64,000 bases of DNA from Herbaspirillum rhizosphaerae (GTDB lineage Bacteria > Pseudomonadota > Gammaproteobacteria > Burkholderiales > Burkholderiaceae_D). The position numbers were made by a program, and so were the translations under genes. The notes under the pieces were generated by a model. The model was not told the origin of the DNA. It searched no databases and saw only the letters and a list, made by a program, of their open reading frames with translations. Numbering within the stretch: the first letter of the stretch is position 1; each line of letters begins with the position of its first letter. The DNA lies in assembly GCF_001189965.1 (NCBI RefSeq), contig NZ_LFLU01000018.1, forward strand, positions 1 to 64,000, given 5' to 3'. Below are positions 14,568 to 64,000 of this stretch, one piece after another.

Positions 14568-14707
14568 AACCGGTTCACGCTCTGTAGCGAGAGGTCGTCA
14601 GCCAGTGGCGGACGGAGCGGAGGAACCGGAGTGTACTTTAGTACATGAGGATTCCGAGCACCGCCCGACGCTGGATCACGGCCTCGCAGTAAGAGCGTGA
14701 TCCGGTT
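14568..14707. repeat. Quasi-palindromic dispersed repeat, copy 2 (edd-eda junction)
   Basis: An inverted copy of the 9587-9728 element. Its basal stem is AACCGGTTCACGCTCT at 14568-14583 against AGAGCGTGATCCGGTT at 14692-14707 (15 of 16 pairs), a different sequence from copy 1. The inner core is closely similar, including a central GTACTTTAGTAC. The element overlaps the last codons of edd; the stop codon at 14676-14678 lies inside it. Confidence 0.9.
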
Positions 14708-58131: not shown

Positions 58132-58494
58132 GGGGCCGACTTGGTTTCGACGTGGGTTGCAAAGCAGCGCAGGGCATACCGAGGCCTGACTACCTCGTAA
58201 ATACAATCAGACAAGATATAACTGCAAACGATAACTCGTACGCACAAGCGGCTTAATACCCGCTTGCTCTACACTACTTCTTCCTTGGGGTAGGCTGGTA
58301 AAACAGCAGTAGAGTCATTTACAAGGAATCGCTTTGAATCGGGTCACTTGATTCAAGGCTAAATCTAAGGTGACTCGCCTTAACGAAGCGTGCGCGTCCG
58401 CGTCGTTCGGGTTAAATCAAATGGCAGCGCTAAGTATGTAGAACTGTCTGTAGAGTGCTTGCGGACGCGGGTTCGATTCCCGCCGGCTCCACCA
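58132..58494 (+). ncRNA. ssrA: Transfer-messenger RNA (tmRNA)
   Basis: A 363-nt tmRNA that rescues stalled ribosomes with SmpB. The 5' end GGGGCCGAC pairs with the 3' end GTCGG...GCCGGCTCCACCA, and the alanine-tRNA-like T-arm GGGTTCGATTCCCGCC is intact. The 3' CCA is encoded. The tag frame runs from the resume codon GCA at 58224 to a TAA at 58254-58256 and reads ANDNSYAQAA, with the charged Ala before it. Most tags end LAA or ALAA; this one ends QAA. A -10 TATAAT at 58114 and a terminator at 58502 bound it. Its 3' end is partly repeated at 58679, a hallmark of island insertion. Confidence 0.96.
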
Positions 58495-58501
58495 CCAATA
58501 C

Positions 58502-58529
58502 AAAAGGTCACCCCCGGGTGGCCTTTTTT
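58502..58529 (+). terminator. Terminator of the tmRNA gene
   Basis: An AAAGGTCACCC/GGGTGGCCTTTTTT hairpin starts 7 bp after the tmRNA 3' end and finishes with a run of T. It is the normal ssrA terminator. Confidence 0.9.
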
Positions 58530-58545
58530 ATTGGTGATGATCCAG

Positions 58546-58570
58546 ACCGAACCGAACCGAACCGAACCGA
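58546..58570. repeat. (ACCGA)5 tandem repeat
   Basis: Five perfect copies of the pentamer ACCGA in a row, immediately downstream of the tmRNA terminator. It is too small for a gene. Such tracts vary by slippage. Confidence 0.85.
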
Positions 58571-58678
58571 ATCCGCGTCCGGTACGGACGCGGGGCAAGC
58601 CCGGGGTTGCGCGAAGCATCACTTCGTGCCGGACGAGCCAGTTGGGCTTTCAAGCCCAACTGTGGGAGATTCCTACAA

Positions 58679-58712
58679 CTCAACCACCAATACGAAGGTC
58701 AACGTTGGGTGG
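58679..58712. other. Partial duplicate of the tmRNA 3' end and terminator (att-like)
   Basis: CTCAACCACCAATACGAAGG and the following TCAACGTTGGGTGG repeat, with a few changes, the tmRNA 3' end and terminator (CTCCACCACCAATACAAAAG and so on) at 58487-58525. Direct repeats of a tmRNA 3' end are typical of attL/attR left by integrases. No integrase gene is in the window. Confidence 0.6.
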
Positions 58713-58751
58713 AATGCCGTTCAGTTAAGCCCGAAACGTCCTGCCAAAACC

Positions 58752-58809
58752 TGTGACACCGTCGTCCTGACGAAAGTCAGGACCCAGCGTCGTATCGGCG
58801 GGTGTCACA
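58752..58809. repeat. REP-like nested hairpin
   Basis: TGTGACACC at 58752-58760 and GGTGTCACA at 58801-58809 enclose a perfect inner hairpin GTCCTGAC/GTCAGGAC with a GAAA loop (58764-58783). This looks like an element common in proteobacterial intergenic regions. It does not match the 9587/14568 repeat. Confidence 0.6.
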
Positions 58810-59012
58810 ACACCGAGCTCCAACGTTCGCCGGGGCCAGATGAATGATGAAAGATAACAACAGGCGCAACTCCACCATACACCCTCCTCACCAAGACCTG
58901 TTTTGCCCAAAAACGCACTCTCCGTTCGGCTTGAATTGGCCGATGCGGATCAAAAAACCTCTATCGCTCCCTGATTTCACACGTCTAAACAAAACAAAAA
59001 TTCAATAGTTTT

Positions 59013-59048
59013 TATTCGAAATTAATATCGAATAGTTTAATTTATAAT
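59013..59048 (+). promoter_or_regulatory. Operator-like palindrome next to a -10 box
   Basis: TATTCGA (59013-59019) and TCGAATA (59028-59034) flank ATTAAT, a 22-bp palindrome with one mismatched pair. A perfect TATAAT sits at 59043-59048, 8 bp further on. The whole stretch from 58980 to 59100 is very AT-rich, unlike the rest of the window. It would control the binding-protein gene at 59138. Confidence 0.6.
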
Positions 59049-59137
59049 GAGTTATTACCCACATTAATGTTGCATAAATTTCAATTTATGATGCTGGGGG
59101 CTGTCAGGTGTCAAATCAATCCGAGAATAAATCACCT

Positions 59138-60310
59138 ATGAAAATTCGCACACGGACATTCAGCGCTTTGTGGGCATTAGGCAGCGTCATCGGCGGTATC
59201 TTGTTTCAGGTTTCTTCAGCGCATGCTCAGGATGTACAGACGGCATCCATCGGATTTCTCACGCCGCTGACCGGGATTTACGGTCCCTACGGAACGAACG
59301 GCGCCAATGCAGCCCAGCTCGCCATTGATGACGCAAACAAACGCAAGATCACAATCAATGGGAAACTGGTTGTCTTCAAACTGAACGTGCAGGATGACCG
59401 GTCCAATGCCAACAATGCTGTCCAGGTCGCGAATTATTTTGTAAAAACGGGGGTTGTCGCTGTCATCAGCCGGGGCAATACGCGCAACGCCATGAGCGTT
59501 TCCAAAATCTATAGCGACGCCGGCATCGCGCAAATCACACCCACTGCGAGCGGACGGCCGTTTACCCAGCAAGGATTTCAGACCACCTTCCGCATTATCG
59601 GCCACAGCGATCAGGGCGGCCGCTACCTTGGCGAGTACATCCGCACGACCTATCCCAACAAAAGCATCGCTGTCATCGATAACCGTACCGAAGCCGGCCG
59701 GACTTTCGCCGACAATTTCAGCCTGGCGATCACCCAAAACGGCGGCACCATCATGAGTCGCGACTTCGTCGATGACACGACTTCCGATTTCAACACAGCC
59801 TTGGTGCGTGCGAGAAAAGCGGATATCGTTTTCTTCGGCGGCCTGTATTCACAAGAAGCGCCCTTGTTGAACGCCATGCGGCGTTTGGGCATGACCGCCA
59901 TGCTGGTCAGCGGCGCCAACGGCATGACCAGCTCCAATTTTTTGTCTCCGGATGTCGCAGATAAGGCTGATGGCACGATCGCTCTGGAGACCACCCTGCC
60001 TTTCAATGAAGTCGAAGGCTGGAAAGCGATAAAAAAAGCCAATGTAGAGAAGTTCGACAGCGCGGCCGAGTTGTACGAGCCGCTAGCCTATGACGCCATA
60101 CAAGCCATCGTTGCGGCAGTCGTGCGGGCACAGTCTCTCGATCCTCCAAAAATCACTGCGGCGCTCCATCGCATCAAACACAAGGGATTGACCGGGATGA
60201 TCTCGTTCGATGCTGAAGGCAATCTGGAAGAGCCCATTTATTCCATTTATCAGGTAAAAGAAAAAAAATGGGTGCTGGTTAAAATCGTCAGGGCAAAACA
60301 AGGCCGGTAG
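59138..60310 (+). CDS. Orphan ABC transporter substrate-binding protein (LivK type)
   Basis: A 390-residue periplasmic binding protein of the Peripla_BP_6 family. The start is the ATG at 59138 (MKIRTRTFSALWALGSVIGG); an in-frame GTG at 59108 is possible. Signal peptide cleavage is expected after SSAHA. The mature protein opens with IGFLTPLTGIYGPYGTNGANAAQLAIDDAN and carries the ARNT-type substrate loop SRGNTRNAMSVSKIYSDAG. No ABC permease or ATPase is near. The convergent gene at 60424 encodes a relative, and both differ from the LivK-type gene at 3992. It may serve a distant transporter or a sensor. Confidence 0.9.
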   Translation: MKIRTRTFSALWALGSVIGGILFQVSSAHAQDVQTASIGFLTPLTGIYGPYGTNGANAAQLAIDDANKRKITINGKLVVFKLNVQDDRSNANNAVQVANYFVKTGVVAVISRGNTRNAMSVSKIYSDAGIAQITPTASGRPFTQQGFQTTFRIIGHSDQGGRYLGEYIRTTYPNKSIAVIDNRTEAGRTFADNFSLAITQNGGTIMSRDFVDDTTSDFNTALVRARKADIVFFGGLYSQEAPLLNAMRRLGMTAMLVSGANGMTSSNFLSPDVADKADGTIALETTLPFNEVEGWKAIKKANVEKFDSAAELYEPLAYDAIQAIVAAVVRAQSLDPPKITAALHRIKHKGLTGMISFDAEGNLEEPIYSIYQVKEKKWVLVKIVRAKQGR

Positions 60311-60423
60311 CAAGTTCGTCCGGATGTGCACACTGCGTCCACATGAATCCTCAACACCTCCTCAGGCGCCAGCCAACCACGGCAGCATCTGAAATGGTGC
60401 CTGCCCGCCGGGCGATCATGCGC

Positions 60424-61605
60424 TCAACGGACTGTGTCGGTCTTTAAGGCAATCCATTTCTGGTCTTGTACTTTGTAAATGGTAAACGACGGCGTGCGCG
60501 GATTGCCGGTGGCATCAAAAGAGACTGCTCCCGTTACCCCTTTGTAGTTGATCTGATGCAGCGTCTCGGCAATTTTTTTCGGATCCACGGAATTGGATTG
60601 CCGTACGGCAGCCATGAAAACAGCCGCAGCGTCGTAGGCATAAGGTGTCAGGCCGTAGATGTTGAAGTCGAAATGACGAGTGAAATCAGCTTCGAATTTT
60701 TTCCATCCAGGCATGCTGGTCAACGATGCTCCGGCTTCCTGTGCGATCACACCATTCGCGGCGGCGCCTGTCGACATTAAGAAAGACGAACCGACGATGC
60801 CCACCATGGACGTGACCAGGTAAGGTTTTATTCCCAGGCGTTGCATATCCTGGGCCAGCGTACCGGTCTGCGACGAATAACCGCCAAAGAAAATCGCATC
60901 GGCGTTTTTTGTACTGAGATTTTTGAGAATACTGCTGAAGTCCAGCAAAGTCGGATCAATCGATTCTCGACTGACAACCGCCGCGCCGTAGCTCCTTGCG
61001 ACCTTGCTGCAAAGCGTACTGATGGAAGTGCCGAAGGTGCTGCCGTTATCAATCACGGCAATCCGATGTACGTTCAGATTCCTGATCAGGTATTTCCCCA
61101 AAAAATCGCAAGCGTTATCGTCAATGCCGATCATTCGAAACGTACTTGACGACCCCGCTTCCGTATATTGCTTTACGGTCGCTGTCGCGGAAATTTGTGG
61201 AATACCCGCTTTGGCATAAATCGGCGAACCGGCAATACTCGTGCTGCTGTTGGTGCCGGCAATGACGCCGACAACACCGGCCTTGACGAACTCAGCAGCG
61301 ATGTCTGCGGCCCCTTCGGTACTGCCGCGATCATCTTTGCGCAACAATCGAAAGTAGATACGTTTTCCGTTCATTTTGAACGGCGAACGGTTGTTGTCGG
61401 CAATGGCCAGTTCTGCCGCGTTGGCAAGGCTCTTGCCAAACGACTCGGAAACGCCGCTCAAGGCGCCGGAAAACCCTATCGTCAGTGTCAGGCTGCCGTC
61501 CTCTTCCGCGAAACACGCCTGCGCCTGCGCCAACAAAGAAATCGATAGCAGCAATTTACCGATCCGACTCAAAAACCATCCTTGGCTCTTACATAAGCTC
61601 TTCAT
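60424..61605 (-). CDS. Orphan ABC transporter substrate-binding protein (LivK type)
   Basis: A 393-residue periplasmic binding protein, convergent with the gene at 59138. The signal peptide (MKSLCKSQGWFLSRIGKLLLSISLLAQAQACFA) precedes LTLTIGFSGALSGVSESFGKSLANAAELAIADNN. Conserved core segments are VAVIDNGSTFGTSI-like (IAVIDNGSTFGTSISTLCSK) and IFFGGYSSQTGTLAQDMQRLG. It resembles the 59138 product through most of its length, including the C-terminal KGVTGAVSFDATGNPRTPSFTIYKVQDQKW. The two look like diverged duplicates placed tail to tail; no transport partner is in the window. Confidence 0.9.
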   Translation of the reverse strand: MKSLCKSQGWFLSRIGKLLLSISLLAQAQACFAEEDGSLTLTIGFSGALSGVSESFGKSLANAAELAIADNNRSPFKMNGKRIYFRLLRKDDRGSTEGAADIAAEFVKAGVVGVIAGTNSSTSIAGSPIYAKAGIPQISATATVKQYTEAGSSSTFRMIGIDDNACDFLGKYLIRNLNVHRIAVIDNGSTFGTSISTLCSKVARSYGAAVVSRESIDPTLLDFSSILKNLSTKNADAIFFGGYSSQTGTLAQDMQRLGIKPYLVTSMVGIVGSSFLMSTGAAANGVIAQEAGASLTSMPGWKKFEADFTRHFDFNIYGLTPYAYDAAAVFMAAVRQSNSVDPKKIAETLHQINYKGVTGAVSFDATGNPRTPSFTIYKVQDQKWIALKTDTVR

Positions 61606-62090
61606 GTCCGATTTCCGTTTTGATCAAGCGCCGAAGCGCAACGCACACAGGCGGCGCCGTTGCCATCAAAGCGCCAATTATTTGTATTGTTGCACAGTAA
61701 GCTGCCACAGCCGCGTGCCTTGCTTATGTTGAAGAGGTAACGCGGCTGGGCTCACGCATCCTGCGTTGCCGGCTTGAGCGTGTCAAGGTTGTTTTCAGGG
61801 GGATTGCAGATTGGTGCTCCCCTTGGGGCTGCGCCGGGAGGGACACTAAGCCGCTTGAGAAGCGTGTTGTGTTGCGTGTTGTATTAGTGCGGCTTGTGAA
61901 TTGATTGCGGATTGCTCGGGTGTTTGATTCCCGGCACCGAGCGCATGCATCCTCCGTGAAAATTACGCGTTCTTTTCCAGAAAAGTCGAGGCCCGAATGA
62001 TTGCCTGCCAAGACCGCACGTCACATCCGCAAACGATGCGAGCGGCACCTGGCTGTCGAAAGGGATGGGAGAGCAGGTCCCCATCTTCAT
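61606..62090. other. 485-bp gap between the binding protein and the usher, no gene recognised
   Basis: Only short shadow frames occur. No adhesin or fimbrial subunit gene is seen where one would follow an usher. There is no clear terminator. The binding-protein promoter must lie near 61606-61700. Confidence 0.45.
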
Positions 62091-64000
62091 TCAGGACGAT
62101 CTGCCCAGGGTACAGACGGCAGTTGTGGAGTCGTACACCATGCCCTTCGCATCTTTGTCCCGGGCCGGCAATTGATAGTTCAACCGACATTGATCCTGGT
62201 CTTTGCTTCCCCATTTAATGGTCAGCTTACCCGTATCCGCCTCTGCCGTACGCACAAAGATGCTTCCGCCTTGTCCGGACATCCCCACCGAATTGCCCTG
62301 CTCATCGAAGGCTTCCGCACCGAACGGCAGCGGATCGCCGTTTGACAGCTTCACATTGATCAATACGGATCGGCCGCTCACTGTCGGGTACTTCAGCATC
62401 ACGACTGCACCCGCATGCGGCGCCACCCGCTGGCTGGTCACTGCCAGCTCGACATCCGTGGAAGTCCCCTTCGGGTCGATCGCAATTTCGTTGATTCTGT
62501 AGGCCGTCAGGTAAGGAACAATGGCATAGCCGCGACCGTCGACGCGAACACCCGCTGTATTAACCTGGGCGCCTTCCGCATTTTTCGCTTCGACAATGCC
62601 GATTGTTTCACCCAATGTCTGCGACAACGTAATACCCCCGGCATGCACCACCAACCCGCCGGAGACTTGAACCGATTGTGCAGAACCGGTACTGCCCGCG
62701 CTGACATTCGCTCCGAGATTGGCATAAGGGGCGCTGTATTGAACATTGGCGGAAGCAGTCTTCGATCCGCTGCCGTCCTTCGACCCTGTTGCGCCATATG
62801 ACAACGCGTTGTCGTCCCCTGCAGTGCCTGTCACAGAAGTTTGCAAGGTCGTTCCACTGCGACTGTCGCGCGAAGCACTGGTAGTGATGCGCGGCGAGTG
62901 AATTTCCTGCCCAAGCGGGAAGGACAAGCTTGCGTATAAAAGCGTACCGGCTGTCCCGCTTGCCAAGTCCTTCTGGCGTTGTACCGAAACGTTATAACTC
63001 ATCTGTCTCCAGGTGTTACTGTAACCGGCGTTGTATTGCGTGTTCGAACCGGGACGGTTCCAGTAATTCTGGGTCGCGCCGGACAGATAGAGCGAACCGT
63101 TTCCGCTGCCGAGACTTTGATTGATGATCAGCTGCAGCTGGCTACGCTGGCGATCTTGCGCACTCAGATTGACACCTTGAGATTGCAAGGACTTCGCCAA
63201 CTGCAAATCGGCCAGTCGCATATATCCGCTACTGGAGTAACGATACGCCGCCAGCGAGAAATTGGTGTTGGTTTCTTTCAAGAACTTGCTATAGTCGGCA
63301 CGAAAGCTCTGACCGTCACGCACATCGCGATCCGATACTTTGGCATGCGACTGCGTGAGGCTGAATGACACCGCGCCTATCGGCGTACTGAATGCGGATC
63401 CGCCGATGGCCGCCAGGTAGTCCGCCGCAATGATGCCTCCGCCGAACAAGGTGATATCGTTGGTAATGCCGCGCTGGTAAGTGCTTTCCATGAAGCTGAT
63501 GGACGGGCCTAATCCCACATTGCGCGTCTGACCGGCCGTGATGGCGTAACGGCTGACACCGGGGCGCAACAACTGGACGATAGAAGCGTAGGGAACGATG
63601 AAGCTGCTCTGGCTGCCATCGGCTTCCGTCACCTCTACCCGCAAATCACCGCCGTACCCGGTTGGGTAAAGATCGTTGATTTCAAACTGACCAGGCGCCA
63701 CCGTCGTTTCGTAAATCAAATTGCCGTTCTGGGTAATGCGAATGCGCGCATTAGTCCTCGCAACGCCGCGCACGATCGGCGCATAGCCATTTTGCGAATC
63801 GGGCAGCATGCGATCGTCCGAAGCGAGGCGAACGCCGCGAAATCCGACGCTGTCGAACAACTCTCCCGACGTAAAGGAATCGCCAATGATCAATTGGCTT
63901 TTCAGAGGTACGATGTCGCGTTGAAGATAGGTAGCAATGTTCTGATACCTGGTCGGCGATCCGGACTGTTTTGTGAAAGAACCCGAATTGCGCAAGTGCC
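62091..64000 (-). CDS. Fimbrial outer membrane usher protein, 5' end outside the window
   Basis: The C-terminal 636 or so residues of a chaperone-usher pathway usher (FimD/PapC type), which threads pilus subunits across the outer membrane. The window edge cuts off the N-terminal part; the frame is open to 64000. Recognisable usher segments are SQLIIGDSFTSGELFDSVGFRGVRLASDDRMLPDS, the GYAPIVRGVARTNARIRITQNG plug region, and PPGQFEINDLYPTGYGGDLRVEV-like (APGQFEINDLYPTGYGGDL). The C-terminal domain ends in QCRLNYQLP and a conserved pair of cysteines. No chaperone or subunit gene is visible downstream; they should lie beyond 64000 if complete. Confidence 0.92.
   Translation of the reverse strand, partial: HLRNSGSFTKQSGSPTRYQNIATYLQRDIVPLKSQLIIGDSFTSGELFDSVGFRGVRLASDDRMLPDSQNGYAPIVRGVARTNARIRITQNGNLIYETTVAPGQFEINDLYPTGYGGDLRVEVTEADGSQSSFIVPYASIVQLLRPGVSRYAITAGQTRNVGLGPSISFMESTYQRGITNDITLFGGGIIAADYLAAIGGSAFSTPIGAVSFSLTQSHAKVSDRDVRDGQSFRADYSKFLKETNTNFSLAAYRYSSSGYMRLADLQLAKSLQSQGVNLSAQDRQRSQLQLIINQSLGSGNGSLYLSGATQNYWNRPGSNTQYNAGYSNTWRQMSYNVSVQRQKDLASGTAGTLLYASLSFPLGQEIHSPRITTSASRDSRSGTTLQTSVTGTAGDDNALSYGATGSKDGSGSKTASANVQYSAPYANLGANVSAGSTGSAQSVQVSGGLVVHAGGITLSQTLGETIGIVEAKNAEGAQVNTAGVRVDGRGYAIVPYLTAYRINEIAIDPKGTSTDVELAVTSQRVAPHAGAVVMLKYPTVSGRSVLINVKLSNGDPLPFGAEAFDEQGNSVGMSGQGGSIFVRTAEADTGKLTIKWGSKDQDQCRLNYQLPARDKDAKGMVYDSTTAVCTLGRSS

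Follow-up and report, generated by a model that had tools for sequence, protein, structure and literature searches.

A probable repeat unit of the tRNA-linked kind behind the tmRNA gene of Herbaspirillum rhizosphaerae

The tmRNA gene ssrA is known to house integrative elements, such as CP4-57 of E. coli. The same species carries tRNA-linked repeats (TLRs) behind tyrT and tyrV (with rttR), along with the rrn-linked repeats rrA, rrB and rrF. According to a 2021 paper (PMC8144298), TLRs were first described in 1978 and had no known function; as stated there, their last 18-19 bp repeat the 3' end of the upstream gene, and the rrn-linked ones are transcribed and bind both Hfq and CsrA. No literature on an ssrA-linked repeat of such a kind was found among the matches listed, in their titles and abstract starts. 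The window considered here is the whole stretch of DNA that was analysed, bases 1-64000 of a 104,187-bp contig (G000:C10) of Herbaspirillum rhizosphaerae. In our judgement, positions 58495-58712, right behind its ssrA (Table 1), probably represent a single worn unit of a TLR-type repeat linked to ssrA, followed by the opening bases of another such unit. The unit is called TLR-like by its architecture and not as a proven homologue, since convincing sequence homology to the E. coli repeats is lacking.

Table 1. Features of the ssrA region, in window coordinates
Feature	Position	Strand	Basis and remarks
tmRNA gene ssrA	58132-58494	+	ARAGORN, Rfam RF00023; last 32 nt at 58463-58494
Intrinsic terminator of ssrA	58490-58539	+	arms of 24 nt, 88% complementary
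Short run of CCGAA units	58547-58568	+	spacer ahead of the unit; from sequence
Inverted copy of the tmRNA T-arm	58563-58580	+	15/18 positions; inverted repeat I2 of the repeat finder
Structured core of the unit	58563-58674	+	covariance-model match, 110.8 bits (model has the window's own unit among its rows)
Short copy, in direct orientation, of the T-stem 5' strand (GGACGCGGGG)	58586-58595	+	pairs with the preceding stretch as hairpin H1
Hairpin H2, with internal GGGGTT bulge	58596-58638	+	fold, covariation
Hairpin H3, CAGTTGGGCTTTCAAGCCCAACTG	58639-58662	+	fold, covariation
Mini-hairpin GGGAGATTCC and worn beginning of the tmRNA 3'-end copy	58664-58678	+	sequence comparison
Worn copy of the tmRNA 3' end and terminator start	58679-58712	+	repeat finder, alignment, relatives' arrays
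Dispersed repeat, outside the unit	58713-58860	+	41 matches in the genome, counting itself; core around GTCCTGACGAAAGTCAGGACC
Part of the 13-kb segment inside the window	58861-64000		segment ends at about 71743 on the contig; not found at the locus in relatives

Over about 190 bp, the unit comprises in turn the terminator, the inverted copy of the tmRNA T-arm, a short direct copy of the T-stem, the two covarying hairpins H2 and H3 and, in worn form, a duplicate of the tmRNA 3' end; the window holds a single full unit and only the first bases of another. Given the order arm, T-stem copy, H2, H3, tail, the hairpin pair, referred to below as E, takes the place that the T-loop would have in a tmRNA-tail copy. 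The core also has an independent BLAST match to a unit in G015 (E 2.6e-18), and the window strand of 58485-58720, a stretch that takes in the terminator, folds with a z of -4.9. When 14 units were aligned, 14 of their 36 pairs had compensatory changes; with 64 matches (60 distinct rows), both-side changes were seen in 29 of the 36 pairs (shuffled mean 20.2) and in 386 cells against a shuffled mean of 103. Two caveats apply: fitting the alignment to the model works in favour of the structure, and the shuffles ignore relatedness. The covariation signal is destroyed when the partners are slid. The apices of the hairpins are near-perfect palindromes. No Rfam family reached its gathering score over the unit, either in the window or at six relatives' loci; matches near it to miRNA, tmRNA_permuted and Thr_leader all fell below the Rfam cut-offs and were rejected. 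In this strain, the CCGAA run stands immediately ahead of the inverted arm and overlaps it.

The altered copy of the ssrA 3' end and terminator that the first-pass annotation had placed about 190 bp downstream is real, the measured distance being 192 bp. The repeat finder pairs 58487-58504 with 58679-58696 (89%) and 58504-58521 with 58695-58712 (78%), so that the start of the ssrA terminator recurs inside the copy. Taken as one gapped local alignment, 58679-58712 scores 33, whereas dinucleotide shuffling of 58541-59108 gave at best 28 in 2000 rounds. A gap of one base and changes dispersed along the copy mark this alignment, and a one-piece search allowing up to 3 mismatches did not recover the copy. 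This stretch closes the first unit and, judged against the arrays of relatives, is also the sole remnant of the second. It is the end of a structured unit, which the first-pass annotation recognised neither here nor in relatives, and not an isolated att scar.

The likeness to the E. coli TLRs is one of plan. Both kinds of repeat lie behind a stable-RNA gene, are rich in hairpins, come as a few tandem units and close with a copy of the upstream gene's 3' end, which in the ssrA units is often worn. The TLR trait of lying directly downstream of a tRNA or rRNA gene applies only in a wider sense, since here the upstream gene is a tmRNA, bearing a tRNA-like end. At E. coli tyrV, the repeats have a period of 178 bp, with 3.1 copies and three exact 19-nt copies of the tail, and an inverted copy of the T-arm was found there as in the ssrA units, matching at 15 of 18 positions against at most 14 in 500 shuffles; tyrT likewise has such a copy. 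For tyrT and tyrV, two of three definitions of the arm beat all 300 shuffles; under the remaining definition, 9 and 18 of the 300 shuffles did as well. (The word "inverted" does not occur in the main text of PMC8144298.) The differences are that the gene is ssrA, that the bacterial group is another one and that homology is not convincing, the best covariance-model match to the E. coli repeats being 11.3 bits (E 0.035), at the tyr locus only. Furthermore, no inverted arm was detected in the rrfB repeat, where the tail copy scored 13/18, and the two loci used as negatives, leuV and glyY, at which no copy of the tail turned up, did not have it either.

In Herbaspirillum relatives, a block of terminator, hairpins and tmRNA tail copy lies right behind ssrA, in some genomes as a tandem array: 2.4 copies with a period of 170 bp in G014, 3.9 copies (159 bp) in G021 and 2.2 (177 bp) in G013. 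The arrays of relatives hold 1-5 units, among them 2 and 4 within the genus, with one plus five past an insert in G126. BLAST with the unit of one relative matched 12 of the 34 genomes of the genus, the match in G001 lying away from ssrA, and covariance model R1 matched 16 of the 34 at E <= 0.05. Its full-length matches at E <= 1e-14 were in 10 of the 34, all of them behind ssrA; these same 10 genomes supplied the rows of the model. In G022, an eleventh carrier in the genus, a contig break divides the unit. At the family level, matches at E <= 0.001 come from 115 of 195 genomes and from 31 of 44 genera, dispersed copies included, and a tmRNA was called beside the match in 18 of 26 new loci. 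Among 56 stretches found by a pattern that itself demands the tmRNA end, the model matches 48 at E <= 0.01, with none of the five actinobacterial ones; named carriers also matched by the model include Herbaspirillum, Collimonas, Massilia, Duganella, Janthinobacterium, Noviherbaspirillum and Herminiimonas. At the level of the order, a match at E <= 1e-4 was obtained in 33 of 250 genomes, and of 28 loci from that search six adjoin a tmRNA and one a tRNA-Phe. The unit is found by the covariance model behind ssrA in many genera of Oxalobacteraceae and in some other Burkholderiales. Many ssrA loci have no detectable unit: at E <= 1e-6, model R2 matches 17 of 70 tmRNA loci, a set in which some loci share a genome and some were chosen knowing of a match.

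The ends of the units were compared over 80 loci, of which 13 repeat another, so that the counts refer to 67 distinct ones; most were picked for carrying the unit, and the set therefore says nothing on frequency. Many units open with the inverted T-arm copy, which reaches 22 nt without a mismatch at one locus (L297) and extends through the CCA end in G047. It lies above all 50 shuffles in 48 of the 67 loci. In better-kept relatives, the unit closes with a direct copy of the tmRNA 3' end; an exact 20-nt copy of the tail is present in 23 of the 67 and one of at least 17/20 in 30, and the tail copy has been lost from many units. At most loci, the sequence of the inverted arm follows that of the tmRNA of its host. 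Where the arm could be placed (52 loci), the base opposite a T-loop G of the tmRNA is C in 38 of 43 cases, and the one opposite a T-loop A is T in 9 of 9 (Fisher p 2.4e-7, leaving out a single G/G case and not corrected for relatedness). The five exceptions were all counted, though at L159 and L180 the arm looks misplaced and L213 is doubtful. Where the tmRNA is unusual, the host's own arm is the best in 11 of 11 loci; at the 56 loci with the common tmRNA it comes first in 38, shares first place in 6 and is surpassed by another arm in 12. Such tracking could reflect selection on a functional RNA rather than copying.

In some genomes, the hairpin core E is dispersed outside ssrA as well, with 79 matches in G072, 78 in G353 and few in Herbaspirillum. 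In G283 it lies in the D-loop of duplicated 5' halves of tRNA-Phe, with the intact gene adjoining; in G311 it has a short inverted stretch on one side and 47 bp copied from the end of ilvC on the other; and other copies, by eye, adjoin simple palindromes. These placements suggest that E settles in or beside hairpins. It resembles REP and REPIN elements, which go with RAYT, in being a dispersed pair of short palindromic hairpins, and one match to the RAYT-like domain Y1_Tnp was found in each of nine genomes (L302-L309). It differs from them in being linked to ssrA and in not flanking the Y1 genes: at the eight loci examined, no unit was found beside the gene (best match 12.9 bits, E 0.17), and a link with RAYT was rejected on this account. 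The Burkholderiales-1 motif (PMC2864571) is likewise a candidate structured motif of Burkholderiales. By eye, E lies inside the apparent 3' end of an integron-type integrase gene at L287 / L337 (G281). A weak match to model R2 was also seen elsewhere in the H. rhizosphaerae genome (G000:C12:282782-282890, E 4.2e-6), about 1.7 kb from a tyrosine-recombinase match at C12:284557-285123.

The first-pass annotation had read the copy at 58679-58712 as a relict att site and found a degraded island plausible in the sequence after it, with its REP-like hairpins. These hairpins, at 58713-58860, are a dispersed repeat distinct from the unit. Part of the reading stands. The 3' end of ssrA is duplicated, and the segment from 58.7 to 71.7 kb was not found at the ssrA locus in the relatives compared, with synteny resuming at about 71,743. 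It encodes two Peripla_BP_6 substrate-binding proteins and an usher and, past the window, FimA, PapD and an OmpA-like protein, the usher, FimA and PapD making up a fimbrial cluster. Relatives of the usher (E <= 1e-100) were found in 20 other genomes among the 34, either on a different contig or at a distance of over 40 kb from ssrA. Use of the ssrA tail as an insertion target is likewise borne out. In G005, a 4.6-kb insert ends in a copy of the tmRNA end next to the core flank. Other genera have inserts too: in G182, 6.8 kb are inserted at ssrA itself, between the gene and a second copy of its end, with a unit beyond; and in G126, an insert of about 6.6 kb that includes one unit lies between ssrA and a second copy of the tmRNA end, with five units beyond. 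(By eye, the insert in G126, L269 1687-7092, carries one ORF resembling a retron reverse transcriptase and another resembling an IS30 transposase.) Going by coordinates alone, G185 (62 kb) and G114 (20 kb) also have inserts between ssrA and the units. The copy at 58679 could accordingly be the attR of an ssrA integrative element that has lost its integrase, which, like elements of the CP4-57 type, would have used the tmRNA 3' end and left a copy of it, with the 13-kb segment following. What largely refutes this is G046, where ssrA is followed by two units and then by core flank matching H. rhizosphaerae from 71,743, with no insert; relatives lacking the insert and carrying the same duplicate had been named beforehand as telling against the att reading. 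The empty-site argument rests on G046, a second candidate, G048, having been dropped because its flank matches only from 72,914. The further direct repeat or integrase suggested for the region past 64000 did not appear either: no copy of the tmRNA tail above chance was found in 58720-73500 (six tests of 30 shuffles each, lowest rate 1/30), none of the 10 proteins of 59-71.6 kb has an integrase domain, and the contig has no match to tyrosine recombinase (PF00589), the two in the genome being on other contigs. Moreover, the copy here belongs to a 190-bp covarying unit with an inverted arm, found across genera, which sets it apart from the known ssrA elements. A relict att site was therefore rejected as the main reading and is judged unlikely; a lineage-specific segment is present, and its left end is not marked by the copy at 58679, since G046 has the units without the insert and neither a tyrosine integrase on the contig nor a further tail copy above chance was found. 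Duplicated ends of tRNA and tmRNA genes are, as a caution, not always the scars of islands.

A functional small RNA, arising by read-through of ssrA with processing at its tmRNA-like 3' end, in the manner of E. coli RrA, RrB and RrF, is a possible though less favoured account of the unit. The strong covariation and fold and the conserved place behind ssrA in many genera speak for it, and the transcription and protein binding of the E. coli rrn-linked repeats (PMC8144298) may offer an analogy. It has to contend with the terminator standing between ssrA and the unit, with the many ssrA loci where no unit is detectable, with the near-perfect palindromes at the hairpin apices and with the variation in array size from 1 to 5 units. 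It is very doubtful that the arrays act as decoys, their spare tmRNA tails diverting integrases from ssrA: the exact 20-nt tail copies and the single unit on the ssrA side of the G126 insert, with five beyond, would fit such a role, but the G182 insert lies at ssrA itself with the unit beyond, and many units have lost the tail copy.

For the preferred reading, a TLR-like repeat worn down to one unit, we propose the following course. E would be in origin a REP-like mobile hairpin element that came to occupy the T-loop of an additional tmRNA-tail copy, leaving the ssrA gene itself whole. The direct and inverted arms may have arisen from duplication of the gene end and fold-back copying. Tandem duplication and loss, promoted by the hairpins, together with conversion, would then keep the units of one genome alike. 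The ssrA tail also serves as a target for integrative elements, which in some genomes are located between ssrA and the units. In this strain, the array would have decayed to a single unit, now parted from the core flank by the 13-kb segment. A broader proposal, which we put forward only tentatively and hold to be rather unlikely, is that a single, so far unrecognised process gave rise to the TLRs of both gamma- and betaproteobacteria. A hairpin element would go into the loop of a palindrome at the end of a gene (tRNA arm, tmRNA T-arm or ilvC end), and this same event would duplicate that end and add an inverted copy, which restores the gene and from then on tracks it, perhaps as a guide or pairing arm. 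With the TLR plan at ssrA in Burkholderiales, a dispersed core and arms that for the most part follow the host's tmRNA, these loci provide a comparative data set in which the origin of TLRs can be tested.

Two smaller observations may be added. Elsewhere in the window, 14572-14646 on the minus strand has an Rfam match to the Xanthomonas sRNA sX9 (57.4 bits, gathering score 44), in a betaproteobacterium. Five assemblies (L002, L237, L250, L248 and L007) end 2-129 bases past the 3' end of the tmRNA, and assembly breaks at such a place are to be expected if repeats are present there.
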